25,583 nt of DNA, taken from positions 1 to 25,583 of IMG/VR virus record IMGVR_UViG_3300017737_000073; one strand, 5' to 3'. The notes under the pieces are model-generated. The model did no database searches and was not told the DNA's origin. It worked only from the letters and a program-made list of their open reading frames with translations. Source of the stretch: a virus. Below, piece by piece: positions 564-22,089 of this stretch (positions within the stretch are counted from its first letter, which is position 1; each line of letters starts with the position of its first letter). The position numbers and the translations under genes are program-made.

Positions 564-994
564 TAGCTTATTATTATATAATCATCATCAGGATAATTAG
601 TTGTTTGTGTGTATTGTCCGCTATTAATTGTATAATAGTCATTGTCAGCTTGATTTATAGTTTGATCAGTACAAAATACCTTATCTAAATAAATACTTTT
701 TTCAGAAGTTGTTATACTTTCCCAGTTATCGGTTGCTGCTTCCCATATTACATTGTAAGTGTTCCATAGCGCACCTACACCTTGTAATATTTTTAAATCA
801 TAAAATCTACCTTCTACTAAACTAAATGTAGTAGATATAGATGCATTATCATTATTTCTTGTTAATGTAACGTTTTCAGTTCTTGTTGTTGTGTTAGTAC
901 TAGTATCTCTAATCGATACAATAACCTGTGACGGATATGTTCTCGGTGCGAAAGTTAAAGTTTGCGCTGAAGTACTAGTTGTTAAAATCTTCAT
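563..994 (-). CDS. Small virion-module protein of unknown function (143 aa)
   Basis: This 143-residue protein is rich in Thr, Ser and Asn and predicted to be mostly beta. It has no signal peptide, membrane segment or recognisable catalytic motif. Its N-terminus (MKILTTSTSAQTLTFAPR) and the FSLVEGRFYDLKIL stretch near residues 57-70 are of a type I associate with small structural proteins beside the portal in Bacteroidota phages, possibly a minor capsid or head-decoration protein; that role is inference. It is translationally coupled to the portal by a TAATG overlap. It is separated from the upstream tail-tube-like gene by a 90-nt gap containing a terminator and a TATTATATA box ending 3 nt before its ATG, so it probably heads its own transcript with the portal. 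Confidence 0.7.
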   Translation of the reverse strand: MKILTTSTSAQTLTFAPRTYPSQVIVSIRDTSTNTTTRTENVTLTRNNDNASISTTFSLVEGRFYDLKILQGVGALWNTYNVIWEAATDNWESITTSEKSIYLDKVFCTDQTINQADNDYYTINSGQYTQTTNYPDDDYIIIS

Positions 995-997
995 ACA

Positions 998-1006
998 TAT
1001 ATAATA
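998..1006 (-). promoter_or_regulatory. Late box TATTATATA, 3 nt before the ATG at 994
   Basis: On the minus strand the sequence reads TATTATATA TGT ATG. It lies just after an intrinsic terminator. The same box with the same 3-nt spacing precedes the genes starting at 13728, 6626, 4698 and 3299. A second copy of the nonamer is at 1024-1032, at the end of the terminator T-run. A -10-like role with a leaderless start is inferred. Confidence 0.55.
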
Positions 1007-1031
1007 AAAAAAAAAATATTTTTTATATAAT

Positions 1032-1056
1032 AAAAAAGGGAAGTTAAAAACTCCCC
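1032..1056 (-). terminator. Intrinsic terminator after the tail-tube-like gene
   Basis: Minus strand: stem GGGGAGTT / AACTTCCC (one G-U pair), 3-nt loop, then six T. It is A-rich on the other side as well, so it could act in both directions. Confidence 0.8.
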
Positions 1057-1084
1057 TTTAAAAACACACAAAAACAAAAAACTT

Positions 1085-1654
1085 TTATGAAGTTGGATTA
1101 ATTTGTGTTCCACTTGCTAACGCAGTAACTACCGTTCCTGTTACGAATAACGGAGGTATTACTTCTGTAGCTGTGAACGTTAAAGTAAATCCACTTAAAT
1201 CAGAATATGCTGCACCACTAACGATAGTACCTGCTGTTACTTCAGCACCTTGGTGGAAACCTACCATTAGATAATTAGCGTCTACTGTATCTGGATCCAT
1301 TGTACCCGATTGTACTGCATTGTTGTCTTTTACTACAACGTGTGGTCTTGCTGCTGCTAGAATTTTAATTTCTTCTTGAGTTGCCACATCTAAATGTGTA
1401 AATGTTAACTCTAAAGTTGTTTCATATACCGTAGTACCTGTATCTCTAGAACTAATGATGTTTGTTGTTAATGAACTAGTAGCACCTTTTAAATCGTATT
1501 CAAAAAAAGCTGGTGTTCCTGATAAAGCAGAAATATTACCTGCAGAGATTGTTGCTGTACCTAATGTACCATAATCTGCAAAATATACTTTACTTAATCC
1601 ACCTACCGATTCTTTACAAGGTAACTGCCTTCCTGTTGTTAATGCACAAGCCAT
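1085..1654 (-). CDS. Putative major tail (tube) protein
   Basis: The 189-residue product starts MACALTTGRQLPCKESVGGL and continues with VYFADYG, a signature I recall from a very common Bacteroidota-phage structural protein usually interpreted as the tail-tube subunit. The middle (residues about 55-105) has alternating polar/hydrophobic strands such as TTVYETTLELTFTHLD, and the C-terminus is Thr/Val rich and beta-like. Size (around 20 kDa) and position between major capsid and portal fit an abundant virion protein. It lies between two strong terminators (1670-1703 upstream, 1032-1056 downstream), so it may have its own transcript or be reached by read-through. No TATTATATA box precedes it; the leader is simply A/T rich. 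A head decoration protein is the main alternative. Confidence 0.72.
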   Translation of the reverse strand: MACALTTGRQLPCKESVGGLSKVYFADYGTLGTATISAGNISALSGTPAFFEYDLKGATSSLTTNIISSRDTGTTVYETTLELTFTHLDVATQEEIKILAAARPHVVVKDNNAVQSGTMDPDTVDANYLMVGFHQGAEVTAGTIVSGAAYSDLSGFTLTFTATEVIPPLFVTGTVVTALASGTQINPTS

Positions 1655-1669
1655 AATTTATTTTATTTT

Positions 1670-1703
1670 AAAAAAAAAGGTAGGTAGTATAATGCCACCT
1701 ACC
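1670..1703 (-). terminator. Strong intrinsic terminator after the major capsid gene
   Basis: Minus strand: perfect 7-bp stem GGTAGGT / ACCTACC around an 11-nt loop, followed by nine T. It lies 26 nt after the capsid stop and ends 16 nt before the next ATG. Confidence 0.88.
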
Positions 1704-1729
1704 CTTTTTAAGTTATACTATTATTTTAA

Positions 1730-2665
1730 TTACGCTGTAGCGTATAATACAATATCACCACCGATTGCGTGCTGAATACCTGCTGTAAATCTCATTACTA
1801 CTCTTACGTTTTGAGATCCATCTAAATCTGCCATATCAATTACTTTTACGAGATTTTGATCTGACATAAGTCCAGTTCCGAAAAACAGGTTACTCGCTTG
1901 TGCTGCAACTGCATCGTTATCTGATAAACCAGGAGCGTTTACTACCTTAATTCCATCAAATGATAATGCATTACCGTTGTTATACCATTGAGTACCTTGA
2001 GCGTTTGTACCTGCTGCACCTAAACCTGCTGCACCAAATCCACCTAAAGCTCTAATATAGTTTCTGTACATATTAGATGGTAAGTAGATATTTAAATCTT
2101 CTGCACCATATACTGCTGTAGGAATAGCGTCAGCTATTTTTCCAAGTTCTGCTATTACGTTTGCAGACGTAGATGCTGTACCTGTTACATCGTTTACGTC
2201 ACCATCAGCACCTAAAGTTGTGATAAACCCATCAAACTCACCTGCTGTTGCATTAGTACCTGTCCAAATGTTTTGTTCCATTTTTTGAGCTACTTTATCT
2301 GCTACGTGAGCAATTAAAAAGTCAGAAAACTTAGGAGGTAGGTTATCAAATGCAGAATATCCCATTGATACTGCTTCCCAATCTGATCTGAAATCTTTTT
2401 TACATAATTCTAAGTTTACCTGAAATTCTTCTGGTTGTAAGATTCTTTCAGTTAAAGTTAGTGTTGAAGTATCTGTAAAGTCACAAGTACCATCTTTTAC
2501 GATACCATCTGTTGCGACTTTTTTCATTACTTGTTTAAATTTTACATTAGGTACAATAGATATGTTACCTTCTGCTAACGTTTTACCTGATAATAGAGCA
2601 GCTGAAATATACTTTCCTGCAAATTCACCAGCATACGTTGTTGTTATTGAAGTTGTTGTTGCCAT
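1730..2665 (-). CDS. Major capsid protein (HK97-like fold, inferred)
   Basis: This 311-residue protein has the make-up of a phage major capsid protein. The N-terminal arm is Thr/Ser rich (MATTTSITTTYAGEFAGKYI). It is followed by NISIVPNVKFKQVMKKV and LTLTERILQPEEFQVNLELCKKDF (split here as LTLTERILQP and EEFQVNLELCKKDF). A helix region follows (IAHVADKVAQKMEQNIW, residues about 119-135), then a Gly/Ala-rich stretch and a beta C-terminus ending GDIVLYATA. This corresponds to a recognised capsid type of Bacteroidota phages. It is 7 nt downstream of the acidic scaffold-like gene and is followed at once by a strong terminator, as expected for a highly expressed product. The HK97 fold itself is inferred from family knowledge, since no single residue motif proves it. 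No N-terminal cleaved delta domain is obvious; a separate scaffold gene supplies that role. Confidence 0.85.
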   Translation of the reverse strand: MATTTSITTTYAGEFAGKYISAALLSGKTLAEGNISIVPNVKFKQVMKKVATDGIVKDGTCDFTDTSTLTLTERILQPEEFQVNLELCKKDFRSDWEAVSMGYSAFDNLPPKFSDFLIAHVADKVAQKMEQNIWTGTNATAGEFDGFITTLGADGDVNDVTGTASTSANVIAELGKIADAIPTAVYGAEDLNIYLPSNMYRNYIRALGGFGAAGLGAAGTNAQGTQWYNNGNALSFDGIKVVNAPGLSDNDAVAAQASNLFFGTGLMSDQNLVKVIDMADLDGSQNVRVVMRFTAGIQHAIGGDIVLYATA

Positions 2666-2672
2666 TATTTAA

Positions 2673-3299
2673 TTAATTATTGTTAGAAATTGCTTGTAAT
2701 ACTCTACCATAGGTAGTGTTTTGATTTGAGTTAACTGCAAACTTTGCACCTAGTTTTTCTTCAATGTTTTCAGGTGAATGTTTGATGCCTTCTGCCGCAG
2801 GTTGAGATAATTCTTCTTGTTGCTGTGACATTTCCTCTTTTTCCTTATCGCCTGATATAGCATCGATAAGTCCTTTGATTTGCTCTTTTACTTCTTCAAC
2901 AGATTCTGCTAAAGCTGTAAGTTCCTCTTTAGTAGCGTAACCCATTTCAGATTTTTCTTCTTCCTGAACTGGCGCTTCTTCAAGGTTAGTATCTTCTACT
3001 GCTGCTGCAGTTTCGTCTACTACTTCTTCTGAATTTTTGATATCTTCTATCATACCTTCTGTTTTAACGATTAATATTCTATTGTCCGAAAGTTCGTACT
3101 CACCAATAGGTAAGGGAACATTCTGATCCTCTGTTTTAATAAACACTTCGCTACCCGATTCAAATTTAGAAGCAGTTAGCACAGTACCGTTCTCCAGAGT
3201 TATTTCTTCTAAAGAAATTTGTTCTAATTTAACGTCTACATTATTAGGATCAACACCTAATAAAGTTTTGACCTTTGATAATATCTCTGTAGCATTCAT
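2673..3299 (-). CDS. Putative capsid scaffolding protein (acidic, coiled coil)
   Basis: The 208-residue product is very acidic, with Glu-rich runs around residues 85-120 (SEEVVDETAAAVEDTNLEEA, then EEEKSEMG). A predicted coiled coil follows (ELTALAESVEEVKEQIKGLI, about residues 126-146), and the C-terminus is low-complexity and Asn/Gln rich, ending RVLQAISNNN. Immediately upstream of the capsid gene this is the classic place and composition of an assembly scaffold. The short conserved-looking C-terminus (LGAKFAVNSN...TYGRVLQAI) may bind the capsid protein, which is inference. The N-terminal 80 residues look like a small beta domain. It starts with a CATTATATA box 3 nt before ATG and probably heads a scaffold-capsid transcript. 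Confidence 0.72.
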   Translation of the reverse strand: MNATEILSKVKTLLGVDPNNVDVKLEQISLEEITLENGTVLTASKFESGSEVFIKTEDQNVPLPIGEYELSDNRILIVKTEGMIEDIKNSEEVVDETAAAVEDTNLEEAPVQEEEKSEMGYATKEELTALAESVEEVKEQIKGLIDAISGDKEKEEMSQQQEELSQPAAEGIKHSPENIEEKLGAKFAVNSNQNTTYGRVLQAISNNN

Positions 3300-3302
3300 A
3301 AC

Positions 3303-3311
3303 TATATAATG
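3303..3311 (-). promoter_or_regulatory. Late box CATTATATA, 3 nt before the scaffold ATG
   Basis: Minus strand CATTATATA GTT ATG, one mismatch to the box found before four other late genes, in a 51-nt gap. No hairpin terminator is visible in the gap. Confidence 0.5.
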
Positions 3312-3350
3312 AATACACGATATTTTTTTACATTTTGTATTAGAGAAATT

Positions 3351-3494
3351 TTAAATACGCCCTATTCCTTGCGCTTCTAATGAACCATCACAGCATTTAC
3401 GACTATAAGTGTTGTCTGGACACAAACAAGCCCTTCTAGCACCTTTAGGTGACGTTCTACTAGGTGTTTTATAATGTTTATCTTTCTTTGGCAT
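3351..3494 (-). CDS. Conserved Cys-rich mini-protein (47 aa)
   Basis: This complete 47-codon gene starts MPKKDKHYKTPSRTSPKGAR and ends CCDGSLEAQGIGRI. The second half carries CLC at residues 23-25 and CC at 34-35, giving four cysteines in a CxC...CC pattern that could bind a metal or form disulfides. I recall the CxC-D-TYS-x-x-CCDGS-x-x-AQGIG signature as widespread in Bacteroidota phages and prophages, often near head genes or at the ends of virion proteins; its function is not known to me. The codon third positions are A/T rich like its neighbours and the ATG overlaps the stop of a 10-codon micro-ORF (TAATG), both supporting real translation. It lies between protease and scaffold, so a minor head protein is possible. 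Confidence 0.75.
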   Translation of the reverse strand: MPKKDKHYKTPSRTSPKGARRACLCPDNTYSRKCCDGSLEAQGIGRI

Positions 3495-3526
3495 TATTTA
3501 CAAATACAATATTCGCAGTTACACAT
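3494..3526 (-). CDS. Possible 10-residue Cys-rich micropeptide
   Basis: A 10-codon frame encodes MCNCEYCICK. Its ATG comes 2 nt after the stop of the protease gene and its stop overlaps the next ATG as TAATG. Four of ten residues are Cys. The start/stop stitching to both neighbours resembles translational coupling. It may be a real micropeptide or merely a coupling leader; nothing beyond the arrangement supports function. Confidence 0.4.
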   Translation of the reverse strand: MCNCEYCICK

Positions 3527-3528
3527 AT

Positions 3529-4698
3529 TTATCTTTTTATAGGTACACAGTTAGGTACTTTTCTTCCATTCTTCATTTTAGTACCAATCATTTCGTAACC
3601 TGATTGACAAGGTTTTTTTAAATCTTCGCTGTGTTGTTCACAAGGCATATACCATTCTTTACCTTCGTATTCGTGTACGTGATAACCTTCGCACCCTAAG
3701 TCTTTTGCAATTTGTTCAGCTTTTTCTTGTGTAGAATATGCAAGGCGATCATCTATTATAGCATATTGTTCGTTTATTACTTCTGAATATAAATTAAGTT
3801 GTTTTATTTTACTTTCTGCCCAACTTTTAGCTGATTTACCACCCCATAATAAATAACTTATAGTACCACAAGCAGTTGTATCGCTTGGATCATAATATTC
3901 TTCTGCTCTAGATAAATAACTATACATTCTTTTAATAGTTTCGGTACTTACCTTTTCTTTTTTAGCTAATTGTTGCGCTCTTATCTTACCTACATCGGTT
4001 GCACACTTATTATTTACTTTGTCGTTTAGCTCTATACCTCTTTTAGCATTATTAGCAACAGAATCTGGATAGTCGTTAAAACTTTCTAGTGTTACCGTTA
4101 CACCATTAACAATATCTTTTAAGGTAGATAATAAATATTCTGCTTCTGCTCTTTCTATCGCGCTTAAATCATCTTTTCTATATGTAGACTTGTCTTGAAA
4201 ATAACCTTCTATTGAAAAACCTTTTACAGCACCTGTTTTAACAAATTCTTGCCATACTTTATCTGAATTTACCTTTACACTACCTACCCAAGTACCAACA
4301 GGGTATTTTAAACCATAAAATGCAGTTTTGTCTTTTATAGGATCTTCTACTATCCAGCTTTCTACTAAACTTAAACCTTTTAGTTGCATTTGGTGTTCTA
4401 GTGTAGCATTGTTTTGGTTACCTTCCATTAAATACATTTCACTAGCCTTACGAACCGTGTCTTTACTAAAATATATATAATATTCGCCTTCTTCGTTAAC
4501 TCGTAGTATTGGTTTATTAGGTATAAGTAATGCACCTAGTAATATTCTCTTTTCATCATCAACTTCTGCTAATTTATACTCAGCGTCTTTATTAAGTGTA
4601 ATAAAATCTTCTTCTATTGCTGGTTTCTCTACAATAGATATAGCTTCTATACCTGAATACTCTTGTTCTTCGTCTAGTATAAGTTCTACTATCTTCAT
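3529..4698 (-). CDS. Prohead protease of XkdF type with C-terminal accessory domains
   Basis: This protein probably matures the procapsid by cleaving scaffold. Residues about 1-175 match the XkdF family: SIVEKPAI near 21-28, GALLIPNKPILR near 55-66, LEHQMQLKGLSLVESWIVED at 100-119, YPVGTWVGSVKV near 132-143 and VKGFSIEGYF at 158-167. By analogy with assemblin-fold phage proteases, His102 and Ser162 are the likely catalytic pair; this is inference. Residues about 215-300 form a second module (GKIRAQQLAKKEKVSTETI, then YLLWGG near 283-288), a helical region that I recall as a separate domain attached to many phage proteases. Residues about 310-389 form a third part with CEGYHVHEYEGKEWYMPCEQH and the conserved ending NGRKVPNCVPI. 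At 389 residues it is much longer than a bare protease. It is preceded by a TATTATATA box. Confidence 0.82.
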   Translation of the reverse strand: MKIVELILDEEQEYSGIEAISIVEKPAIEEDFITLNKDAEYKLAEVDDEKRILLGALLIPNKPILRVNEEGEYYIYFSKDTVRKASEMYLMEGNQNNATLEHQMQLKGLSLVESWIVEDPIKDKTAFYGLKYPVGTWVGSVKVNSDKVWQEFVKTGAVKGFSIEGYFQDKSTYRKDDLSAIERAEAEYLLSTLKDIVNGVTVTLESFNDYPDSVANNAKRGIELNDKVNNKCATDVGKIRAQQLAKKEKVSTETIKRMYSYLSRAEEYYDPSDTTACGTISYLLWGGKSAKSWAESKIKQLNLYSEVINEQYAIIDDRLAYSTQEKAEQIAKDLGCEGYHVHEYEGKEWYMPCEQHSEDLKKPCQSGYEMIGTKMKNGRKVPNCVPIKR

Positions 4699-4701
4699 AA
4701 T

Positions 4702-4710
4702 TATATAATA
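4702..4710 (-). promoter_or_regulatory. Late box TATTATATA, 3 nt before the protease ATG
   Basis: Minus strand TATTATATA ATT ATG, filling most of the 30-nt gap after the tape-measure stop. Same nonamer and spacing as before 13728, 6626 and 994. Confidence 0.55.
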
Positions 4711-4728
4711 TATTTATTTATGTTTTTT

Positions 4729-6495
4729 TTATATTCCACTTTCACTAATTATATTTCTATCTAATTGTTGTGCCGTTGTAACATCTCCTGACACTACATA
4801 TGCTTTAACTGGTTCTCGGTTACTTAATGCTTGTGAAATTTGGTTTATTGGTGATTCTCCAACTACATTAAATGCTGGTGGTAATGCTTGTTGAATAGTG
4901 TTTTGTATTCCTGGTGATGATGCTGTATCACTAGTACCTGGTATTTTTGTTGATACTATTTTATTTACAGTTGCCAATCCTGAAGCAATAACTCCAGCTG
5001 CTGCTACAGGTCCAAATATTCCACCTTGACCTAATGCTTTCGTAGCACCTTCATATGTGTTTATAATTGCTTGTGCTATACTTACAGCCTTACCTGCTAC
5101 AGTACTTTCTCCTAATAGTTGAGATAAACCACCTAATGCATCTGCTACAATTTTTCTTTTTGCTTCAGCTACTAGCTTTTCATTTTTCTCACTTGCATTA
5201 TTATATCTTTTTTCTGCAGAAGCTCTTTGCGCTAAAGCATTTTCATATTCAATAGTACCTTCACCAAATATTTCTTTTGTTTTTTGTAGTCTTATATCTG
5301 CTAGCGCTAGTTCTTCATCTAAAAGTTTTTTTTCTAAATTTAACCTATCTAATATGCCATCTTCAACTGCAAGTTCACCTTCTATATCTAGCCTTCTTAC
5401 TTCTGATTTAGCATCTTGTTCTGCTAGTAAAAAATCTAATTTTTCTTTTTGTAATGCAGCTTCATTAGCTTTTTGTTCAGATGTTTGAGCTAAAATTCTT
5501 TCATCAATTTCTAATAATCTAGTTTTAGCTTCAATTTCCGCAATTTGTAGATCAATGTTTATTTCTTGTCCTATTCGTGCCGCCTTTGCTGCATCAACTT
5601 GTATCTGTGCTAACTCCTTTTCTTTTTGTATTTGTTCTACTTGTAATCTTGATAATTCTTCATTAGCTGCTATTCTATCATTTATATCTTTACGAATATC
5701 ATCTCTTATTCTTCTTTGTTTTTCTTGGGCTGTAAGCGCTTTTAACCTGGCTCCCTCTTGTTTAGCAGCAGCTAACCTTGCTTTTTTATCTAATTCTACA
5801 GTCGCATCAGCAGCTGCCATCATCTCCATTATAAAATCCCTTAGCTCTTTAATACCTCCAGTCATATCTTCTGTAAACTGAATTATATCTACAGCATTAA
5901 ATGGATCACCTAAATTATCTAAACCTTCTTTTAATTTTAATACTGCATTAGGTAAACCAGTAGGACCAGAAAACGCAGACATCGCTGCTTGCCCTAAATT
6001 AAAAAACCCAAGTGTAATTTTTTTTAATGGAATAAAAATAGAACCTATTAATGCTGCACCTAGTGTTGTTATGTTAACAGCTAAATCAGCAAATAATTTT
6101 AACATACTATTACCTGCTGGTTGAAATTTATTTATAAGAAAATTGACGAACCCATTAAATAAGTTTACTGTAAATAAAAATGTTTTTCTAAATTCATCTG
6201 CTACAATCTGATTGCTTAAAAATACTTGTTTTAAAACTGTAAAACCTTCAAGTAACAAACCAATACCTAATGTTTTTAAAGTTAGTCCTACAAAACTTAA
6301 TGCTTCACCTACACTTACAACTGCAGATCTAACTCCAGAAAAACCATCACTTAATTGTTTTGATGTTTTTTTACCTACATTTTCTACATTATCTACACTT
6401 TCTTTTACAGCAGCAAATGATTCTTGTATTTGTTCAAGATTTTCTATTAAATCTTTTACTTTAACTTCTAACTCTACTACCCTTTTTTCTGCCAT
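4729..6495 (-). CDS. Tail tape measure protein
   Basis: This 588-residue protein has the typical tape-measure build. There is an N-terminal coiled coil (residues about 5-40, VVELEVKVKDLIENLEQIQES) and hydrophobic segments at about 58-95 (LTLKTLGIGLLLEGF), 105-120 and 140-170. A long charged coiled coil runs over about 230-445, and a C-terminal hydrophobic, Gly/Ala-rich patch at about 465-515 carries AIINTYEGATKALGQGG and GPVAAAGVIASGLATVNKI. That last motif is common in tape measures of Bacteroidota phages. In siphoviruses it sets tail length at roughly 0.15 nm per residue, which would give a tail near 90 nm (rule of thumb, inference). Its start overlaps the end of a 49-aa gene by 19 nt. No peptidoglycan hydrolase domain is visible. 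Confidence 0.85.
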   Translation of the reverse strand: MAEKRVVELEVKVKDLIENLEQIQESFAAVKESVDNVENVGKKTSKQLSDGFSGVRSAVVSVGEALSFVGLTLKTLGIGLLLEGFTVLKQVFLSNQIVADEFRKTFLFTVNLFNGFVNFLINKFQPAGNSMLKLFADLAVNITTLGAALIGSIFIPLKKITLGFFNLGQAAMSAFSGPTGLPNAVLKLKEGLDNLGDPFNAVDIIQFTEDMTGGIKELRDFIMEMMAAADATVELDKKARLAAAKQEGARLKALTAQEKQRRIRDDIRKDINDRIAANEELSRLQVEQIQKEKELAQIQVDAAKAARIGQEINIDLQIAEIEAKTRLLEIDERILAQTSEQKANEAALQKEKLDFLLAEQDAKSEVRRLDIEGELAVEDGILDRLNLEKKLLDEELALADIRLQKTKEIFGEGTIEYENALAQRASAEKRYNNASEKNEKLVAEAKRKIVADALGGLSQLLGESTVAGKAVSIAQAIINTYEGATKALGQGGIFGPVAAAGVIASGLATVNKIVSTKIPGTSDTASSPGIQNTIQQALPPAFNVVGESPINQISQALSNREPVKAYVVSGDVTTAQQLDRNIISESGI

Positions 6496-6626
6496 TTAAG
6501 CTCGTTTTTAAATTGGTTATACGCTTCTTTTACACTACTTGGTAGTTTATACTTACCTTTAGCTATTAGCACGTTCTCGCTTTTGCTTTTAGAGTATTTT
6601 AATAATTCGATTATGCTGTGTAACAT
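6477..6626 (-). CDS. Small protein upstream of the tape measure (49 aa)
   Basis: This 49-codon gene begins MLHSIIELLKYSKSKSENVL and ends FKNELKWQKKG. It is basic and mostly helical with no cysteine or membrane segment. A TATTATATA box sits 3 nt before its ATG and its 3' end overlaps the tape-measure start by 19 nt, so it is probably translated and coupled to the tape measure. A short helical protein directly before the tape measure could be an assembly factor, but tail chaperone function is better assigned to the frameshift gene at 13728. Third codon positions fit the neighbours. Function unknown. Confidence 0.6.
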   Translation of the reverse strand: MLHSIIELLKYSKSKSENVLIAKGKYKLPSSVKEAYNQFKNELKWQKKG

Positions 6627-6629
6627 ATA

Positions 6630-6638
6630 TATATAATA
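6630..6638 (-). promoter_or_regulatory. Late box TATTATATA, 3 nt before the ATG at 6626
   Basis: Minus strand TATTATATA TAT ATG in the 28-nt gap after the large tail-tip gene. Same box and spacing as the other late genes. Confidence 0.55.
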
Positions 6639-6654
6639 GTTTTATTTTATTTTT

Positions 6655-9600
6655 TTAACAACTTGCATAATTAGATATTACACCTGTGCTACTTATTTGC
6701 GCTCTATAGTTATTTTCGAACTTATACCAATTACCACCACCATTAAATTTATTAGAAGTGGTACTTTCTCCCGCATCCCTAGAATCTGTATACAATACTG
6801 TATTATTACCTAAAGTAGTTTCATCGTAATAAACTATTGTACTTGGTGTTGTGCTACAAGCAGTTGTTGCATCACTACTTCCTGAACTAGATATTTTTAT
6901 ACCAGATAAACCTGCAGTAGATGGGTTTACACTATCATAATAAACATCTCCATTATCAAAGTTCCAATAAACTGTTTCAATATAACCACTACTATCTAAT
7001 TGCAAAAACTGTGTAAATCTAGATTGATAATCATACCATTGTTGTGTACTTGTGTTATATCTTTGAATCTTTGCTGCAAAAATTGCTTGATCTGGATATA
7101 ATTGATATTTATAGTCTTGCGGATAAGTATGTAAAGTTTTAAACGTTCCTAAACCATATGATACAGGTGTTGTTAAGGTTTCATCTGTATAAACCCTACT
7201 ACCTGAACCAACAGGTATAGTTGACCATAAAAATTTAGTTGTGCTTAATGTAGAATTAAATGCAGTAGTTATATCATAAAAGTTTGTACTTGGATATGCC
7301 GAAGTTATTCTTAGCCTTTGTACATCTAGATTACAATTTAGTTCTGCACCTAAGACTCCATTACCCCCACTTATTTGATGATTTTTATTTGGATTATACC
7401 TATAAAAACCGTTAGGTGCTAAAGTTGTAGCTCCTGAATCAGTATATAAGGTTATTCCAACTGCCCAACTAGATGATGTCGAATAGTATGTAGTCGTATT
7501 GCTTGTTACACACGCATAATAAGAACTTCTAGTATCGTTATAAACTATGTAAGGATATGTTTGTACTGGAGTTGTTACTGTTTCGTATGCACTAGATATG
7601 GTCGTGCCTGCACTATTAGTAGCAGATCCCCAATAATAATAATTTGTGTTGCCTGTTAAGTTAGTAAAGTTTAATGATTTTACCCCAGTTGATGTAGTAG
7701 ATATACTATAAAAGTTATTACCCGCTGCATTATAAGCAGAATTATTAGTTCCCATCCAAATACCTGCACTTGTTATACTTGCACCATTATCATTTGTTAT
7801 GTTTATATTACCTGTAAAACTTGTTGCAGTTACACTAGTTTCGGTTTGTGTTTCTACTGATGGTGCAGAAGGTGCTGCAGTTGTTACTACTGTTTCATAA
7901 GAACTTGATACACCTTTTGTTGCGCTATATTGATTTGTTGCTGTACCCCAATAGTAATATGTAGTATTAGCCAATATACCTTCTGAACTACCGAAGTCAT
8001 ATGTTTTTATACCTGTAGAAGTAGGTGCAGGTGTTATATTATAATGTGGATTATTAGTAGCTGCTGCGCTATTTATTCCCATATAGAATCCTGCTCCATT
8101 AATAGTATCACCACCGTCACTAGTGATTTCTAATCTAGCTGTAAAACCTGTATATGTTACGTTTTGTTCTGTTAATGCGCTAACAGTTGGTGGTACAGGT
8201 GCTGATGGTGTTGTTAAGCTAACAGTTGTACCTACACCTTCCCCGTGTTCATTAATTGCATATGCAGTTACATAATAAATTGTGTTACCTGAAACGCCTG
8301 ATGTTTTATTATAAGTATAACTACCTGTAGATGTTCCTGAAACAACTACTTTAGGGGTATTGTTTGTATATGTAGGGCTAGTTCCTATATAAAAACCTTT
8401 TTCAGTTACAGTACCGTTAGCTACATCTAAACTACCATTAGCTGTAAATGATTGATATGTTACATTTGAAGCTGTACTAGTAGTCATTGTAGGCGCTTGT
8501 GTAGGACAAGGTTGATAATTTGATATATAACCATTAGTATCTATTGTAGCATAATTACTACCTGGAAATGCGTGATAGTTTCCTGATCCTGTATATTTAG
8601 TTGTTAAACCTTCATTTGTAAATAGTTGTGTTGTGTTACCTAATAAACCCGAATAATATACTGGTGTATTTAAAGTATAACCACAAGCAGTACTAGGTGT
8701 TGTGCTATTAGATGAAGATATTGAAATTTGTATAAAACCTACACCAGATGAAACTATTGCTTCGCTACCATTTAATAATTCTAAACTAGATTCACCTGTT
8801 TGTAAGTTAGTTGTTATACTATTTATTCTATAAGTAAGATCACCTATTTGTAATTCATCTGCTAAACTGTATTGTTGTAAAAAACTTAAAGGTAGTTTGG
8901 CTTTTATTTTAGTTAACCTTTCATTAAACCTAAATACATTAGTAACATATGCTTTATAATATTTTTCAAATAATGTATCTATATATGCTTCGCTATCATT
9001 CCATTCATTCTTTTCTACATTAAAATGTATAGATTCTGGGTATCCTGCACCTGTGTTTAATATTGCTGGTGTATTACTAGGAATCCAATATGCATCTACA
9101 TTAGGTTCATAAGCATTACTTGTTCCACCATCATAACCAATTATACTTGAGAGCAAATTTATAGAAGGTGCCGTTTCACCCGTATTAGAACTGTGTATAG
9201 GGTAATATATTACTGGTTTACCTAAATACGCTGCTTGCTTGTCATCTAGTAAATGCCCAACTTGTAAACCTGTTGTTAGTTTTTCAAACTTCATATGCTG
9301 AAAAGGTAACACTATTTCATATGCTTGATTATTACTATCTAATGTTCCATCATCATTATAAGTTGCTGATCCCCAATCTGATTGAAACTGCTCTTTATGG
9401 TTTTTAGCAAGTATGTTATTTGTATCTTCGTATTTAAAATCTATTTCTCTATATGGTAATGCTTTATCTATAGTTTTTGTTGTACTGTCTACGTATTCAG
9501 TAACGTCTCTTACCGTACCACCTGAATAATAACTATCTAACGTTTTAACATATATCTTACCATCTTCTTTATAAGCTGTTAGATTAAACATTTTAAATAT

Positions 9601-10920
9601 TCCTGACAAGAAGTCTATTATTTTAATATCTGGTATGTTTTGTTTTATAGAAAAACCTTGTGTTGGTATATCAAAGTTTGCATCTACATCTCCTGTTGCT
9701 ATACTAGTTGTATCATAGTTGTCGAAATTCCCAAATAAATCAAAAGAAAAATTATCTACAGTTTCATTATTATCTGCTCTAAAAATTAATTCATAAGTAC
9801 CATTACCTAAACTAAAACTTCTTAAATCATTAGATTGTCCTACCCCATAAGTAAAAGTTGTTTCTATTTGGTTACTTGATTTGTTTCTTAAATCTACATA
9901 TATGTTACCTGTAGATGATGAATATATTACACGTAATGCAAATTGAAAGTTTTGATATGACGCTAAATTATATATTATAAATACTCTCTCGCTTAATATT
10001 AAGTTATTAGGGTGATAATTGTATGCATTAAAATATGATCTACCAGTTTGTTTATTTGGTGTGTATGAACTTCCTAGACCTTCTAATATTTTACCTGCGT
10101 TTCTTTGGCACAGCATATATAAGTTATAGAAACCTATATTAGTTGTATTAAAGAAATCATTACTAAATGTTATTAAATCGTATTGATCTTCTATTGCTTT
10201 TATAATTACATATAACCTTAAACTATATACTAGATCTTTCCAATAATAACCTGAGTGTTGAGCGCTATTAGTTGTACTTAAATTACCTCCCGATATATTT
10301 ACTTCTTCTTTTGTTGCATCATAATAAGATGGAGAAGTTACAGGCGATGTTACGTTTAGAAAAAAGGCTCTTTGTGAATTACCTATCAAAGATACTAATG
10401 TAGGTGTTGTAAACGTTTCGCTACCAACTGTAACATTACCTGAACCTGAAGTTGATGTTAATGCAGTTTTTACATCTGATGATGTATAAGTTACATCAAA
10501 ATTATCTAAAAAATCTAAGTCTTGTAATTTAGAATCACCTAACACTTCTTTTAAATCTAAATCACCAAAGAATGTAATTCTATATGTGTCTGATCTACCG
10601 TTTTTTAAATCTACACCTTCTAATCTTATCTTACCTCTTTGAAATGGTAAACTATTTAATTCTATTTTAGCATCTTTCTTTTTACGTGCATCAAAAGAAA
10701 AGTTTGATGATTGTATAAAATTATGATAATGTTTAAAGAATTTATTGTTTGTTTTACTAGCGGGTAAACTAAATGTTTTACTAAAGTTAGTAAATATCTT
10801 AGCAGGATCTTTTACGTCTTGTATGGTTTGTGTTAAAGATATTGTTTCATCTTTAAATAAATCTAACCTAGTATAATTAACATCGCCAGGTTCTTTAACA
10901 TATAATTCAATATTATTCAT
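6655..10920 (-). CDS. Large tail-tip/adhesin protein with tail-hub-like N-terminus and FN3-like repeats
   Basis: This 1421-residue protein is the largest in the window. Residues about 1-130 contain LTQTIQDVKDPAKIFTNFSK followed by TFSLPASKTNNKFF, a pattern I know from conserved tail-tip/baseplate proteins of Bacteroidota phages. Residues about 130-740 look like mixed alpha/beta hub and tail domains. A Cys-bracketed module spans about 742-805, ending ISNYQPC. Three fibronectin-III-like repeats follow at about 805-900, 900-1013 and 1013-1125, each with TxxSFTxxG... GFYxG or GIWMG and TYYYxxxAxN signatures. Further short modules follow, and the last one at about 1350-1421 ends ISNYASC. The C-terminal half is Ser/Thr/Tyr/Asn rich and probably displays receptor-binding surfaces. 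It is coupled to the gene before it (TAATG) and followed by the tape-measure unit. Confidence 0.75.
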   Translation of the reverse strand: MNNIELYVKEPGDVNYTRLDLFKDETISLTQTIQDVKDPAKIFTNFSKTFSLPASKTNNKFFKHYHNFIQSSNFSFDARKKKDAKIELNSLPFQRGKIRLEGVDLKNGRSDTYRITFFGDLDLKEVLGDSKLQDLDFLDNFDVTYTSSDVKTALTSTSGSGNVTVGSETFTTPTLVSLIGNSQRAFFLNVTSPVTSPSYYDATKEEVNISGGNLSTTNSAQHSGYYWKDLVYSLRLYVIIKAIEDQYDLITFSNDFFNTTNIGFYNLYMLCQRNAGKILEGLGSSYTPNKQTGRSYFNAYNYHPNNLILSERVFIIYNLASYQNFQFALRVIYSSSTGNIYVDLRNKSSNQIETTFTYGVGQSNDLRSFSLGNGTYELIFRADNNETVDNFSFDLFGNFDNYDTTSIATGDVDANFDIPTQGFSIKQNIPDIKIIDFLSGIFKMFNLTAYKEDGKIYVKTLDSYYSGGTVRDVTEYVDSTTKTIDKALPYREIDFKYEDTNNILAKNHKEQFQSDWGSATYNDDGTLDSNNQAYEIVLPFQHMKFEKLTTGLQVGHLLDDKQAAYLGKPVIYYPIHSSNTGETAPSINLLSSIIGYDGGTSNAYEPNVDAYWIPSNTPAILNTGAGYPESIHFNVEKNEWNDSEAYIDTLFEKYYKAYVTNVFRFNERLTKIKAKLPLSFLQQYSLADELQIGDLTYRINSITTNLQTGESSLELLNGSEAIVSSGVGFIQISISSSNSTTPSTACGYTLNTPVYYSGLLGNTTQLFTNEGLTTKYTGSGNYHAFPGSNYATIDTNGYISNYQPCPTQAPTMTTSTASNVTYQSFTANGSLDVANGTVTEKGFYIGTSPTYTNNTPKVVVSGTSTGSYTYNKTSGVSGNTIYYVTAYAINEHGEGVGTTVSLTTPSAPVPPTVSALTEQNVTYTGFTARLEITSDGGDTINGAGFYMGINSAAATNNPHYNITPAPTSTGIKTYDFGSSEGILANTTYYYWGTATNQYSATKGVSSSYETVVTTAAPSAPSVETQTETSVTATSFTGNINITNDNGASITSAGIWMGTNNSAYNAAGNNFYSISTTSTGVKSLNFTNLTGNTNYYYWGSATNSAGTTISSAYETVTTPVQTYPYIVYNDTRSSYYACVTSNTTTYYSTSSSWAVGITLYTDSGATTLAPNGFYRYNPNKNHQISGGNGVLGAELNCNLDVQRLRITSAYPSTNFYDITTAFNSTLSTTKFLWSTIPVGSGSRVYTDETLTTPVSYGLGTFKTLHTYPQDYKYQLYPDQAIFAAKIQRYNTSTQQWYDYQSRFTQFLQLDSSGYIETVYWNFDNGDVYYDSVNPSTAGLSGIKISSSGSSDATTACSTTPSTIVYYDETTLGNNTVLYTDSRDAGESTTSNKFNGGGNWYKFENNYRAQISSTGVISNYASC

Positions 10921-11957
10921 TATCTAATATTACTTATCATATCAAAGGCATATTCTGCTGTAATAGTATATTGTACTATTTTATCGTTTACACCTGTTTT
11001 AAATGTTTGTTGCGTATCGGTTATATTAATTGGTACTGTTTGTTCTGATCCACCTTCTACTTTTCTTATCCATACTTGCTCACTAACTAATAGTTGTTTT
11101 ATGCTTTCATTTACACTATCATAACTCATAGGTGGGGTGTTCAATATAAGTGTTTCGTTAGCTAAAGCGTTAAATTGCTTTATGGAATGTTTTTGCTTAT
11201 TATATTCAAAACTGCTATTAGCTATGTTTCTTTTAAATGTAGTTTTATTTACTTTAATGTTTTCTGTAGTTTTACCATTAAAATAAAAGTCTTGTAAAGC
11301 TCCATATTTATTTACAAATGTGACCTTATATGCTGTGTGTTTATTACAAACTCTATTAATCTTAAAAACTGTACTTATAACTGTTTTAGTTGTATCACTT
11401 GCACTAAACGTATCATATACAATTGCAGTACCATTCCAATAAGGAATTACACCTGCTGTATTATCAGGATAATATAATTGTACTCCGTCTTGCATTACTG
11501 GTGTTCCGTTTATAGGATCAAAATCTGTTAATAGTTTTGCACTATTTGGAGGATTGTTGCCAGTACCTTTTCCTTCCATAAATTCATAGTAACCATCTAA
11601 TCCTTTATGATCTATTGTAAAAGAATCCATATTATGTACAGTACCACCTGTGTTAATGTCATCTATTGTTGCGCTTTTAAATGTTAGTGTACCTGTTATT
11701 GCTATTGTTTGACTAGTGTATGAATTGTTAAATGTAATGTCTAAATAATCTCTACATAAGTCTGCTATCTCAAAACTAACTGTTCCAGTTTCTGTACCGC
11801 TACTTCCAGATAGCACCGTATCTTTACTCATTTCACTTATTACAGTACCATCTACTGATAATTCTAATGTAGCACTTTTAGCTACAAGTGAATTTACCGC
11901 ATCATATGCTTCGCTCTTAGTTTCGTAATACGGACTTCTTAATAATATTGCTGCCAT
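10920..11957 (-). CDS. Conserved tail/baseplate protein, distal-tail-like
   Basis: The 345-residue product starts MAAILLRSPYYETKSEAYDA and has a beta-rich N-terminal half with FEIADLCRDYLDI around residues 82-94. A middle section carries TAYKVTFVNKYGALQDFYFN (about residues 207-226), a signature I recall from tail proteins that sit just before the tail-tip protein in Bacteroidota phages. It overlaps both neighbours by a single base (TAATG on each side), which suggests strict co-translation with the gp10-like protein and the tail-tip protein. A distal tail or baseplate-hub role is inferred from position; no enzymatic motif is visible. Confidence 0.65.
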   Translation of the reverse strand: MAAILLRSPYYETKSEAYDAVNSLVAKSATLELSVDGTVISEMSKDTVLSGSSGTETGTVSFEIADLCRDYLDITFNNSYTSQTIAITGTLTFKSATIDDINTGGTVHNMDSFTIDHKGLDGYYEFMEGKGTGNNPPNSAKLLTDFDPINGTPVMQDGVQLYYPDNTAGVIPYWNGTAIVYDTFSASDTTKTVISTVFKINRVCNKHTAYKVTFVNKYGALQDFYFNGKTTENIKVNKTTFKRNIANSSFEYNKQKHSIKQFNALANETLILNTPPMSYDSVNESIKQLLVSEQVWIRKVEGGSEQTVPINITDTQQTFKTGVNDKIVQYTITAEYAFDMISNIR

Positions 11958-12532
11958 TATATTCTTTTAATTAAATCTGCTTCTTTCATACTATCTATAA
12001 ATTCATTAAGCATATCATCTGCAAATATGTTTTGTAAATCTTGTGGTAATTTTTTATATTCATTAACAAATGGTATAGACCAGAAATTATTAGCTCTTAT
12101 ACCTTTTTCATAAATTGATTTAGAAATAACATATGCTATAGATTTATAATTGCCTTTTTTAAATTGACCTTTTGCATCTCTAAATCTTATATTTCTAGCT
12201 TTAGCCCAACTTTCAAATGCTGTGCTTGGTGGTCTTTTAGTAGAAAATTTATATGGTGTATTTTTATTTACTCTATAATTACTTTTAGTACCTTTTACAC
12301 CAAAGTTTATGTAATCACCATAATCCTCCATTAACAAACCCCATACTTGCGCTTTAGGCGTTTCACTAAATTTATTGTATTTTATACTATTGTATAATCT
12401 TTTAGTATTATTTATAGGTCGTCTTTTCTTTTGCAACTTAGTACCTTTGCTAAGATTCTGTCTAGCTTGTTTCTTTACAGCTTTAAAGAACTGATCTAAT
12501 CTTGCATTAAACTTATCTGAAACTACTAACAT
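11957..12532 (-). CDS. HK97 gp10-like head-tail/neck protein
   Basis: This 191-residue basic protein has a Lys-rich N-terminus (KKQARQNLSKGTKLQKKRRP, residues about 19-38), then RLYNSIKY, EDYGDYINFGVKGTKSNY (about 69-86) and FSTKRPPSTAFESWAKARNI. A third part contains RDAKGQFKKG and YVISKSIYEKGIRANNFWSIPF. The DYG-Y-NFGVKG motif and the Ile-Arg-Ala-x-x-Phe ending are what I know from gp10-like tail-completion proteins of Bacteroidota phages. These sit at the neck between connector and tail tube. It overlaps the upstream gene by 7 nt and the downstream gene by 1 nt. Its place within the tail operon, away from the portal, is unusual. Confidence 0.72.
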   Translation of the reverse strand: MLVVSDKFNARLDQFFKAVKKQARQNLSKGTKLQKKRRPINNTKRLYNSIKYNKFSETPKAQVWGLLMEDYGDYINFGVKGTKSNYRVNKNTPYKFSTKRPPSTAFESWAKARNIRFRDAKGQFKKGNYKSIAYVISKSIYEKGIRANNFWSIPFVNEYKKLPQDLQNIFADDMLNEFIDSMKEADLIKRI

Positions 12533-12999
12533 ATATATTGATCATTAGGTAATTCTATTTCTAGATCTGCATTCCACCCCGCTAAGTTATTTTCAAACCT
12601 ATCTACAAATGGTTCACAAGTAGGATCATTAGTTAATTTATATCCCGTAGTGTTTAAATCGCCAAATCTTAATTTTTGTATTAATTTATTTAATACGCCT
12701 AACTGTGTGTTTAATATATCTTGTTCGTCTGTGTTTTTTCTAAACTTATCTGTTTCTTCTTCTTTACTAGTATCTTTTATATCCATAACAAGTACGGTAA
12801 TATTATATACAAGTGTCTGTTGTGTTGACACTACATTGTTTACTATAAAGTGTGCTAGGGGAAATATAGTTTGTTTACCTAAGTCTACATCAGATACATC
12901 TCCTATAGTAACTGTTTTAGTTATATCGTTGTTTAATAGTGAACTTTCTAGCGCTTCGCTAAGTAAGTAATATGATCTAATGGCTACGTTTGCTGGCAT
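12526..12999 (-). CDS. Putative tail terminator/completion protein
   Basis: The 157-residue protein has an N-terminal helix (VAIRSYYLLSEALESSLL), beta strands with TVTIGDVSDVDLGKQTIFPL and a strand-rich core (VYNITVLVMDIKDTS). A helix follows in the 85-110 region and a C-terminal acidic beta section ends ELPNDQYIC. This layout and its place directly before the gp10-like gene fit the tail-terminator/minor-tail-U type of small protein that caps the tail tube. No motif proves it, so the role is inferred from size, predicted secondary structure and neighbours. Its ATG lies inside the -1 frame extension of the upstream gene (23-nt overlap), implying coupling to the frameshifted product. Confidence 0.55.
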   Translation of the reverse strand: MPANVAIRSYYLLSEALESSLLNNDITKTVTIGDVSDVDLGKQTIFPLAHFIVNNVVSTQQTLVYNITVLVMDIKDTSKEEETDKFRKNTDEQDILNTQLGVLNKLIQKLRFGDLNTTGYKLTNDPTCEPFVDRFENNLAGWNADLEIELPNDQYIC

Positions 13000-13246
13000 T
13001 TCTTTTTAATTCTGCTTGTTCTACTTCGTTCTTTTCTTTTATATATAATAATACATTTAAAGATTTTAATAATCTTTCTTTAGTGATATTTTCGAATTCT
13101 GTAATACGTCCCTGAGAGAGTTCGTAAATTGCTGAATACCACCCCCATCGCTTAGAAAACTGTGCTGACCTTCCGTTAGGTTGCTCAACTGGTTCTCCGT
13201 TAAATAATCCATCATATTGCTTGACAACTCGATCCCTAAATTGTAA
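12977..13246 (-). CDS. -1 frame extension of the tail-chaperone-like gene (trans-frame part)
   Basis: After the U9 run at 13245-13253, the -1 frame stays open for 89 codons to a TAG at 12977-12979. This gives a predicted 250-residue fusion (161 + 89). The frame encodes FNGEPVEQPNGRSAQ, then FSKRWGWYSAIYELSQGRIT (about 40 residues into the extension) and a charged helical end KEKNEVEQAELKRN. The WGWY-x-x-I-x-x-L motif is of a type I associate with tail assembly chaperone or related proteins in Bacteroidota phages. Third codon positions in this frame are mostly A/T as elsewhere in the phage, whereas the zero frame over the same bases is rich in G/C third positions, so this looks like the selected frame. 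It may arise by programmed slippage, or a missing base in the homopolymer may have split one gene. Confidence 0.7.
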   Translation of the reverse strand, partial: LQFRDRVVKQYDGLFNGEPVEQPNGRSAQFSKRWGWYSAIYELSQGRITEFENITKERLLKSLNVLLYIKEKNEVEQAELKRNASKRSH

Positions 13247-13728
13247 AAAAAAACCACCGCACTAAAACACACATCTAAAGGCATATCTTTCATTACATCG
13301 CTTTCTTTAGCTTCGTAATCAATAATATTATATTTATCTCTATGTGCTTCTTTAATTGGTCTATATAAAACACTCATAGCTTTATGCATATCATCCCACG
13401 ATTGCATATAGTTTTCTATGTCTACATATTCACCTAATGATATATCTTCTAATACTGGTATAAATCCATATGCAGTATTATTCATTTCAAAGCGGTTTAT
13501 TAGTTTAGGTTTTATTTCTAGTAAGTCGTTTAGTATTTTAATTATTTCGTTCATATCTGTGATCTTAATTTTAAATGTGTCTTTAAGATCTATGCCACAA
13601 AATATCTCTATCATCTTTTGAGCTACAAACGTACCATCACCGTTGTCTTTTTGTATTTTAAGAAACTTCTGATATTGATCTAATGTCAGTTCGTTTAGAT
13701 CTGTTGGTACGTTAATAGATAACTTCAT
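13066..13728 (-). CDS. Tail assembly chaperone-like protein, zero-frame product (220 aa)
   Basis: The zero-frame product is 220 residues. It starts MKLSINVPTDLNELTLDQYQ; residues 1-160 are helical and acidic with FKIKITDMNEIIKILNDLLE near 53-72 and EDISLGEYVDIENYMQSWDD near 94-113. The LTLDQYQ.F opening and this middle segment match my memory of an uncharacterised tail-module family in Bacteroidota phages. From the U9 run (codons 159-161) onward the zero frame has G/C-rich third positions unlike the rest of the phage, so its last 59 residues are probably not the main product. Position just before the tail genes and the frameshift arrangement resemble G/GT-type tail chaperones. However, it precedes the tape measure by seven genes, whereas such genes usually sit next to it. 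A TATTATATA box precedes it. Confidence 0.75.
   Translation of the reverse strand: MKLSINVPTDLNELTLDQYQKFLKIQKDNGDGTFVAQKMIEIFCGIDLKDTFKIKITDMNEIIKILNDLLEIKPKLINRFEMNNTAYGFIPVLEDISLGEYVDIENYMQSWDDMHKAMSVLYRPIKEAHRDKYNIIDYEAKESDVMKDMPLDVCFSAVVFFYNLGIELSSNMMDYLTENQLSNLTEGQHSFLSDGGGIQQFTNSLRDVLQNSKISLKKDY
13245..13253 (-). other. Nine-U slippery run, candidate -1 frameshift site
   Basis: The mRNA reads G GUU UUU UUU UAC in the zero frame, so both P- and A-site tRNAs can re-pair perfectly after a one-base backward slip. The frame entered by the slip is open for 89 more codons. A one-base homopolymer sequencing error would give the same appearance. Confidence 0.65.
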
Positions 13729-13731
13729 AAA

Positions 13732-13740
13732 TATATAATA
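13732..13740 (-). promoter_or_regulatory. Late box TATTATATA, 3 nt before the ATG at 13728
   Basis: Minus strand TATTATATA TTT ATG, 21 nt beyond the T-run of a terminator. It probably heads the long tail-gene transcript. Confidence 0.57.
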
Positions 13741-13761
13741 ACAAATTTAACTTTTTTTCAC

Positions 13762-15762: not shown

Positions 15763-15894
15763 TTAATTTCTTTTACCTTGTCCTCTATATTTCTTTTTAT
15801 AACCCGTTTGTCCTCTACTTGCATTCTTACTATGCACACCTGGTCTTTTCTTTTTAGGTCGCTCTATGTAAGCACTTATTATCTTTCTTGCCAA
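15763..15894 (-). CDS. Conserved small basic protein before the terminase (43 aa)
   Basis: The frame runs from a TTG codon (15894) to a TAA 2 nt before the terS ATG. It contains IISAYIERPKKKRPGVHSKN and then SRGQTGYKKKYRGQGKRN. The RPGxHSKxxS...YKKxYxGQG signature is one I recall as a recurrent tiny protein beside terminase or head genes in Bacteroidota phages. Almost a third of its residues are Lys or Arg, suggesting nucleic-acid binding, but function is unknown. No in-frame ATG exists between the upstream stop and the conserved part, so the TTG start is chosen by default. The TATTATATA box at 15919-15927 is upstream. Confidence 0.7.
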   Translation of the reverse strand: MARKIISAYIERPKKKRPGVHSKNASRGQTGYKKKYRGQGKRN

Positions 15895-15918: not shown

Positions 15919-15927
15919 TATATAATA
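15919..15927 (-). promoter_or_regulatory. TATTATATA box before the packaging genes
   Basis: Minus strand TATTATATA TTT GAT. The twelve bases TATTATATATTT are identical to those before the ATG at 13728, but here no ATG follows; the first start is the TTG 21 nt further on. It lies in the 49-nt gap that separates the replication genes from the terminase genes. Confidence 0.4.
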
Positions 15928-15943
15928 CTTTTTTTTACTTTTT

Positions 15944-16372
15944 TTAATACACCCACTCACTTTCATCTAAAAATACTTTGTCTTTTACCATAGTATCTAT
16001 TTGTGCTGCCATCTTCATTAATGTATCTGCAGGTAAGTATTTTAGTTTAGATTTTATATATGCAGTTGTGTTTGCTCTACTTTTAAAGTCTGGTTTAGCA
16101 AATAAACTATTAAACCATTCTTGCATTCTTTTATTGTTATGTTCATATACTTCAAACATTCTTATACTGTGTGTTAGTGTTGCATTATCCATATTAAAAC
16201 CTAATTGGTTAAATATCTTTATTATATCTTTATTACGTAGTTTGTAATAGTGTCTTAGTATGTGTACAAAAAATGATCTCGCTTCTACATATTCTTGATC
16301 TCTTTTCTTTTGTAAAAAGTTTATACCTGTTACGTCTTTAACTTCTTTTGCTATTCTGTATGTCTCTCTCAT
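15944..16372 (-). CDS. DnaA domain IV-like protein
   Basis: This 142-residue protein resembles only the DNA-binding C-terminal domain of DnaA. Residues about 23-73 carry KRDQEYVEARSFFVHILRHY, then LRNKDIIKIFNQLGFNMDNAT and LTHSIRMFEVY. In DnaA this order is: basic patch with aligned R..aR..a..L, then the helix with I(G/F)..f, then the D-H-(S/T)-T-V-x-H-A/S signature. The last element here is D-N-A-T-L-T-H-S. The rest (residues 75-142) is a helical tail of unknown role. It lacks the AAA+ ATPase domain, so it may recruit or compete at an origin or act as a transcription factor. It is the last gene before the packaging unit. Related domain-only proteins are found in other Bacteroidota phages. 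Confidence 0.68.
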   Translation of the reverse strand: MRETYRIAKEVKDVTGINFLQKKRDQEYVEARSFFVHILRHYYKLRNKDIIKIFNQLGFNMDNATLTHSIRMFEVYEHNNKRMQEWFNSLFAKPDFKSRANTTAYIKSKLKYLPADTLMKMAAQIDTMVKDKVFLDESEWVY

Positions 16373-19157: not shown

Positions 19158-19321
19158 CTTTTAATTTGTATTTTATTCCAATCGTCTTTTCTCTTATCAC
19201 AACCACAGTCTTTGTAGCCGAATAGTTTTGCTATAGCCGTAGCTATTCTTTTACCATAACCAAACGTGATTATGTTAATTATTTTTTCTGCTAGATCCCC
19301 TAGTCCAATCGAATTTCTCAT
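19154..19321 (-). CDS. Conserved small protein with CGC motif (55 aa)
   Basis: This complete 55-codon gene starts inside the 3' end of the sigma-like gene (47-nt overlap) and ends with an ATGA overlap to the next gene. The protein MRNSIGLGDLAEKIINIITF continues GYGKRIATAIAKLFGYKDCG and CDKRKDDWNKIQIKR. The GLGDxxEKI...G...KDCGCxxRKxxxN pattern is a recurring tiny protein of Bacteroidota phages that I recall without known function. Cys39 and Cys41 in CGC plus the basic end suggest metal or nucleic-acid contact; this is inference. Although it lies in an overlapping frame, the motif makes it a convincing gene. Confidence 0.75.
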   Translation of the reverse strand: MRNSIGLGDLAEKIINIITFGYGKRIATAIAKLFGYKDCGCDKRKDDWNKIQIKR

Positions 19322-19832
19322 ATTGTTTTTTTACAAAATCTTTTACTTTTAAATATGTGTTTCTTAAAGATACATAACTTATATTAGTTTCTCTTTGTAG
19401 CTCTGATATTTTCTTACCGCCAGACAACAGTTCAAATATTGTAATGTCATACCAAGTAAGTTTCTCTCTATAATCATCTGTAAATTCTTCTAGCTTATTA
19501 AAAAGTGTATCTTCATCAATAGTACTTTTTTTACCATACTTAGCTAAAGCTGAACTTAAATCAAAGTTTTCGCTATCAGATGTAATTATTAAATCTTTAC
19601 GCTTGTTGTTGTGTTGTTTTAATCGTAAACAAGAATGAAAGATAATTTTATAACAATAGAAATAGTTTATATCGTTTTCACCATATCTTAAATCTTTACC
19701 CTTCTTTGTTAGATCATCTATTTTAATATACATTTCCGAAACAATATCTTTGCAGTCGTCATCACCGCAGTTAAAAGATTTACATATCCTTAACCAATCT
19801 TTATGTTTCTTATATGCTATTTCAAGAATCAC
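19275..19832 (-). CDS. Sigma-70-like factor (ECF-type), putative late regulator
   Basis: This 185-residue protein has the two-domain shape of a small sigma factor. Residues about 22-42 (GDDDCKDIVSEMYIKIDDL) resemble region 2.1-2.2. YFYCYKIIFHSCLRLKQHNN (58-77) lies where region 2.4 contacts the -10 element. Residues about 120-172 form a region 4-like helix-turn-helix (ITIFELLSGGKKISELQRET, then NISYVSLRNTYLKVKDFV). Phage-encoded factors like this redirect host RNA polymerase. It overlaps the ATPase gene upstream by 11 nt and lies in the early operon, as expected for a factor that turns on late genes. The TATTATATA boxes before late genes are the obvious candidate targets; that link is inferred. 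A non-sigma HTH regulator is the alternative. Confidence 0.68.
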   Translation of the reverse strand: MILEIAYKKHKDWLRICKSFNCGDDDCKDIVSEMYIKIDDLTKKGKDLRYGENDINYFYCYKIIFHSCLRLKQHNNKRKDLIITSDSENFDLSSALAKYGKKSTIDEDTLFNKLEEFTDDYREKLTWYDITIFELLSGGKKISELQRETNISYVSLRNTYLKVKDFVKKQYEKFDWTRGSSRKNN

Positions 19833-21688: not shown

Positions 21689-21690
21689 TT

Positions 21691-22086: not shown

Positions 22087-22089
22087 TTT

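Follow-up and report, generated by a model that had tools for sequence, protein, structure and literature searches.

Candidate leaderless late promoters and a putative ECF-type late sigma factor in a lineage of uncultured tailed phages of Bacteroidota

Is the short box that stands at one fixed distance before five late genes of an uncultured phage a promoter fused to the start codon, or is it a signal for translation? The window, i.e. the whole stretch of DNA analysed (25,583 nucleotides), is a 25.6-kb fragment of a tailed phage with a G + C content of 31%, one of a family of marine flavobacterial phages. On its minus strand, genes of recombination and replication and one small gene for a helix-rich protein (19275-19832) precede those of the terminase, tail and head. 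A sequence-only reading had proposed leaderless late promoters. The proposal is supported here by conservation, clade-coherent boxes, displaced copies of the promoter and a cultured relative, all by comparison of sequences and without mapped 5' ends. The box is very probably the -10-like part of a two-element late promoter, read by a divergent ECF-type sigma factor of the phage, with five of six transcription units predicted to start at the A of the ATG.

The pattern TATTATATANNNATG is present four times in the window, always on the minus strand, with the ATG at 994, 4698, 6626 and 13728. These coordinates agree with the earlier claim. In shuffled sequence TATTATATA-N3-ATG averages 0.08 occurrences and never attains the four observed. 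The putative scaffold gene at 3299 has the variant CATTATATA-GTT-ATG, box and distance being as reported before. The bare nonamer TATTATATA is found in 11 copies (3.3 expected). The five N3 spacers differ, yet their final base is T in 5/5. The bases of the spacer vary, as had been said; besides box and distance, T at -1 and a second element at -30 to -25, neither of them noted earlier, are kept as well.

All five promoters and genes lie on the minus strand. The promoter of g13728 (gene 13066-13728, phrog_32199) occupies 13732-13758, with an A-tract at 13758-13753 (-30 to -25), the box TATTATATA at 13740-13732 and the predicted start of transcription at 13728, the A of ATG; its score with a position weight matrix (PWM) is 22.1 bits. 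The 49-aa open reading frame before the tape-measure gene (6480-6626, overlapping that gene) has its promoter at 6630-6656 (predicted start 6626, 23.5 bits). The head maturation protease gene (3529-4698, Peptidase_S78_2) has it at 4702-4728 (predicted start 4698, 22.8 bits), and the putative scaffold gene (2673-3299, phrog_24921), upstream of the major capsid gene, at 3303-3329 (variant CATTATATA, predicted start 3299, 21.8 bits). The promoter of g994 (gene 563-994) is at 998-1024 (predicted start 994, 23.7 bits), just downstream of a terminator. The terminators noted earlier near two of the boxes are present as intrinsic hairpins on the minus strand, at 1059-1034 just upstream of g994 and at 13792-13766 just upstream of g13728.

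Two further nonamers are rejected as promoters. The copy at 1024-1032 is made up of the tail of the terminator and the A-tract that belongs to the 994 promoter; in several relatives the equivalent nonamer is lost and the A-tract kept. The copy at 13042-13050 reaches 16.6 bits but is inside a conserved overlapping reading frame. Beyond the end of g13728 (about 13000-13100, minus strand), relatives conserve a second frame (ITKERLLKSLNVLLYIKEKNEVEQAELKRNASKRSH), which a tail assembly chaperone possibly uses to make a frameshift product. Between the major capsid gene and g1654, at about 1665-1700 on the minus strand, lies a hairpin like that of a terminator, GGGTAGGTGGCATTATACTACCTACC-T9, both strong (z -4.8) and conserved. 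No box or promoter was found for g1654 although it is behind this hairpin. Expression of g1654 may depend on read-through, and the hairpin is possibly an attenuator that sets capsid above the downstream genes.

With the PWM, trained on other contigs, six sites and no more score strongly in the window (21.8-24.8 bits), five of which are those already known; under a Markov null, 0.1 site per window attains at least 15 bits. The sixth, at 15919-15945 on the minus strand, has the highest score of the window (24.8 bits) and keeps both elements (A-tract 15945-15940, box TATTATATA 15927-15919). It belongs to the terminase operon. Its predicted start at 15915 leaves a predicted leader of 21 nt to the first gene of the operon, a 43-aa basic open reading frame (15763-15894, minus strand) with a TTG start; the start codon in relatives is TTG, GTG or ATG. 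The leader itself (15915-15895, minus strand, GATTAATCAAGTTTTTTCAAG) is nearly identical across clade A and is recognisable in clades B and D right after their differing boxes. It contains the palindrome TTGATTAATCAA; no stable fold of this leader was found.

More than 200 IMG/VR loci were gathered with the large terminase subunit (TerL), protease and sigma factor as queries. Homolog upstream regions were aligned through the proteins, not through the box. For each of the five genes, homologs as distant as about 60% protein identity still have the box, whereas the sequence on either side of it has drifted. No box is seen in these upstream regions before the major capsid gene, the tape-measure gene or the tightly packed tail genes. 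In stacked non-redundant promoters the box is at -12 to -6, T is at -1 in 95-100%, and an upstream element is at -30 to -25 (A-rich, window's clade) or at -31 to -26 (CAAAAT, other clades). The promoter of the window's clade reads A6 at -30 to -25, TATTATAT at -12 to -5 and T at -1. Of 22 unique occurrences of the two-element motif in clades B and C, 21 stand exactly 5 nt before the ATG of an open reading frame of at least 40 aa. Comparison of these regions strongly favours a promoter over a ribosome signal as the identity of the box.

The two elements also recur 12-42 nt upstream of starts elsewhere. Leadered copies are present in clades B, D and E as well as in the window; the homolog of g13728 in one contig (L205) has, 12 nt further upstream, the same D-type promoter that in a relative (L207) is placed leaderless. 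Of 19 non-redundant displaced sites, some of them related and a few perhaps false, 18 have T at -1 and 18 have a purine at +1. These bases mark a start signal at the very offset that in leaderless genes is taken by T and the first base of the ATG. Promoters of the phage sigma factor could still be real with the start a few bases off, giving very short leaders or a start inside the gene; homologs in L039, L041 and L107 have the box 1-2 nt further from the ATG, which would give leaders of 1-2 nt. Such an offset is unlikely, as the T and the purine of the displaced promoters sit precisely at the leaderless position. That the 5' end coincides with the start codon is supported only indirectly, by the spacing, by T at -1 and by the purine at +1 of displaced copies.

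The sequence of the box differs between clades. Five types are distinguished: A, TATTATA (window's clade); B, CGTTATA; C, CGATATA; D, TTATATA; and E, TGATATA, the last known from one contig. Each contig has its own type at several late genes and rarely another type. Matches to the type of the own group number 38 (type A), 12 (type B) and 13 (type C) versus 0-0.2 expected, so that the matrix across contigs is block-diagonal; contigs of types A and C also contain a few matches to the short type-D pattern. A deeper clade, F (L143, L162-L164, L252), has AACACTT-N13-ACATTA before homologous late genes. Type-F promoters are all leadered, with 7-19 nt between box and ATG, which suggests that not all phages of the wider group place their late promoters at the start codon. 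Boxes coherent within clades are what one would expect of a promoter that co-evolves with a specificity factor of its own; no such pattern would come from a translation signal common to the host.

The candidate for that factor is the product of the gene at 19275-19832 (minus strand), a putative divergent ECF-type sigma assigned by the profiles of its relatives and by its fold. The protein of the window alone has no match above threshold in Pfam, PHROG or NCBIfam, no match among cultured phages by tblastn, and a PDB sequence search with a narrower alignment (A1) gave nothing useful. In 15 diverse members of the family, TIGR02937 (sigma70-ECF) is matched by 14 (best 9.7e-12) and phrog_1740 (RNA polymerase sigma factor) by 11; matches to Sigma70_r2 and r4_2 are also present in family members, and a PDB profile search gives a sigma factor (5.7e-5). 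The AlphaFold model of the window's protein is of moderate quality (pLDDT 69), and its top Foldseek matches in the PDB are all ECF sigmas, with a weak E of 0.03. Homology to ECF group 4 regions 2 and 4 in a short two-domain protein is met by the family, the window copy alone being below threshold. Of 28 records searched, 21 have the gene; those without it are for the most part short fragments, with G021 and G012 in addition. Whatever the box type, almost every long relative carries the gene. For contig G011 (L080), which has a sigma gene, the search gave no box type.

On the sigma tree, types A, B, C, D and F need one change each, the minimum possible. Promoter and sigma factor thus appear, from this comparison, to have changed together as the phages diverged, although agreement by clade could reflect shared descent without direct contact. 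In the helix after an aromatic stretch (region 2.4 in ECF sigmas) the motif read by eye is [IV]DL.RK for clades B and C; its counterpart in the cultured phage P12024L is MDELRR, and these three have CG at -12/-11; the sigmas of A, D, E and F are without the region 2.4 D. The association of this D with CG at -12/-11 is suggestive only.

P12024L, a flavobacterial phage that infects Nonlabens (Persicivirga) sp. IMCC12024, is the nearest cultured relative of the window's capsid protein (32% identity). The annotation of its gene 35 (21405-21884) names sigma-70 region 2, and the protein aligns to the window's sigma family (hhalign 92%, E 6e-7). Boxes of the type CGTTA[AT] lie exactly 12 nt before the ATG of the late genes at 179, 3031, 5412, 24771, 26011 and 27612, a placement that would make all six leaderless, and at 11 nt, offset by 1 nt, before the gene at 22090. 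Nearly all are preceded by the element AAAACAAA (null mean for the pattern 0.28). With its sigma gene and its boxes, P12024L has the arrangement where it was predicted, with a new box. Nonlabens phages P12024L/S (Inhavirus) resemble the window in the related capsid, the sigma-70 region 2 gene and AAAACAAA-N-CGTTAATA exactly before ATG; P12024L differs in its box and in T at -1, which is not invariant. Promoters were examined in P12024L only, not in P12024S, and no paper describing the promoters of P12024L/S was found in the literature searched. In bacterial genomes, a search with only the window's TerL gave no relative; an alignment matched bins of Winogradskyella and other Flavobacteriaceae at 58-59%.

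Could the boxes instead be promoters for the primary sigma or another sigma of the host? Host -7 elements start with TA at -12/-11, as type A does, and Flavobacterium psychrophilum has a CGT-box class of ECF promoters (PMC9723704). The host consensus TANNTTTG (PMC6847099) is not met by type A, which has ATAT at -8 to -5; nearly every long contig of each type has the phage sigma gene, and the box types follow its tree. Reading by a host sigma is therefore very unlikely. A search for TANNTTTG in the window gave one exact match, near early gene 21688, no more than the roughly two that chance would give. At that place (21736-21706, minus strand), TTTGTTTTATAAAAAAAATTTGATAACTTTG fits a Bacteroidota host promoter 18 nt before gene 21688, the stretch being also coding. 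Before early gene 22086, the region 22087-22180 (minus strand) is AT-rich with repeated ACAATATAGTACTGTATA-like stretches, similar in relatives; operators or an early promoter region are possible. In P12024L (L311), TATATTTG is only 4 nt before the ATG of the early gene at 20463, and this host-type promoter may be nearly leaderless too.

The alternative named at the outset was that the A/U-rich box acts in translation only; the host would be one that initiates without Shine-Dalgarno sites. The box is A/T-rich and adjoins the ATG, and Bacteroidota tune initiation with upstream adenines at -3, -6 and -12/-13 (PMC6847099). Of the positions of this Kozak-like signal, A at -6 alone agrees: type A shows no conserved base at -3, position -12 holds T or C, and -12/-11 are CG in other clades. 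The -30 element is outside the footprint of a start site, both elements occur also 12-42 nt away from starts, and the type of the box follows the phage sigma. The major capsid gene, where a signal for strong translation would be expected and the promoter of an operon would not, is without the box. The translational account is scarcely tenable. Mere chance, to which 31% G + C and 11 bare nonamers might point, is ruled out for practical purposes by the shuffles, the PWM null and the conservation.

The preferred reading remains a two-element late promoter read by a phage sigma factor. Its elements, their spacing and conservation, the clade-coherent variation and the sigma gene in nearly all long relatives are established at the level of sequence; recognition of the promoter by the protein of 19275-19832, initiation exactly at A+1 and late expression are all inferred. 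Early genes, including that of the sigma factor, would be read by the host polymerase with a host sigma. The phage sigma would then redirect the host core polymerase to the late promoters. The start site would coincide with the ATG in five of the window's six late units, giving an mRNA without a leader; the terminase operon would be leadered. Preferential or factor-independent initiation on 5'-AUG late in infection is a possible reason, given here as speculation.

The likeness to T4 late promoters proposed earlier, with a single box, is replaced by a two-element ECF-type promoter with a divergent ECF-type sigma. Shared with T4 and its gp55 are a phage-encoded sigma-family protein, late genes and an AT-rich -10 box of fixed sequence; the T4 late box is TATAAATA at -13 to -6 (PMC1524935). 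Unlike T4, the window's family has a second upstream element at fixed spacing, a sigma of the ECF class and the lock to the start codon. A single element without an upstream one is not met, since the second element is present at -31 to -25 in types A-D and is kept in displaced copies. In phage Aeh1 the box has changed (CTAAATA) with divergence of gp55 (PMC1524935), resembling the clade differences described here.

With ECF sigmas (E. coli RpoE, the CGT-box class of F. psychrophilum) the family shares a promoter in two parts and a sigma of two domains, regions 2 and 4. The spacer of about 13 nt between element and box looks shorter than that of classical ECF promoters. Type B and P12024L have CGTT at -12 to -9, like the ECF CGT box (PMC9723704). 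A CGT-core -10 with an AAC-type -35 is met by type B (CGTT) and P12024L (CGTTAATA, AAAACAAA) and not by window type A (TATTATA, A6). Unlike known ECF sigmas, the factor is phage-encoded, types A and D are without CG, and the -30 element is A-rich.

Leaderless mRNAs of Flavobacterium likewise have the 5' end at the start codon, which is predicted here. Their share is small: in F. psychrophilum, 5.5% of mRNAs with mapped starts are leaderless (PMC9723704), and transcripts of F. johnsoniae are mostly leadered (PMC6847099). Leaderless late mRNAs at five of six predicted units would thus be a marked departure from the host. Phage late sigmas are already known, and co-divergence of box and sigma has been noted before in T4-like phages (PMC1524935). 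Probable, with less assurance than the reading of the box itself, is a lineage of Bacteroidota phages with a leaderless late programme through an ECF-type sigma, promoters fixed to the ATG and at least six diverged specificities, in hosts without Shine-Dalgarno sites and rarely leaderless. If true, late promoters fused to the start codon in such a phylum would tie the choice of promoter to a different mode of translation. Box and sigma varying together would form a natural sigma/promoter series for mapping specificity, and the pairs may be useful for orthogonal expression in Bacteroidota.
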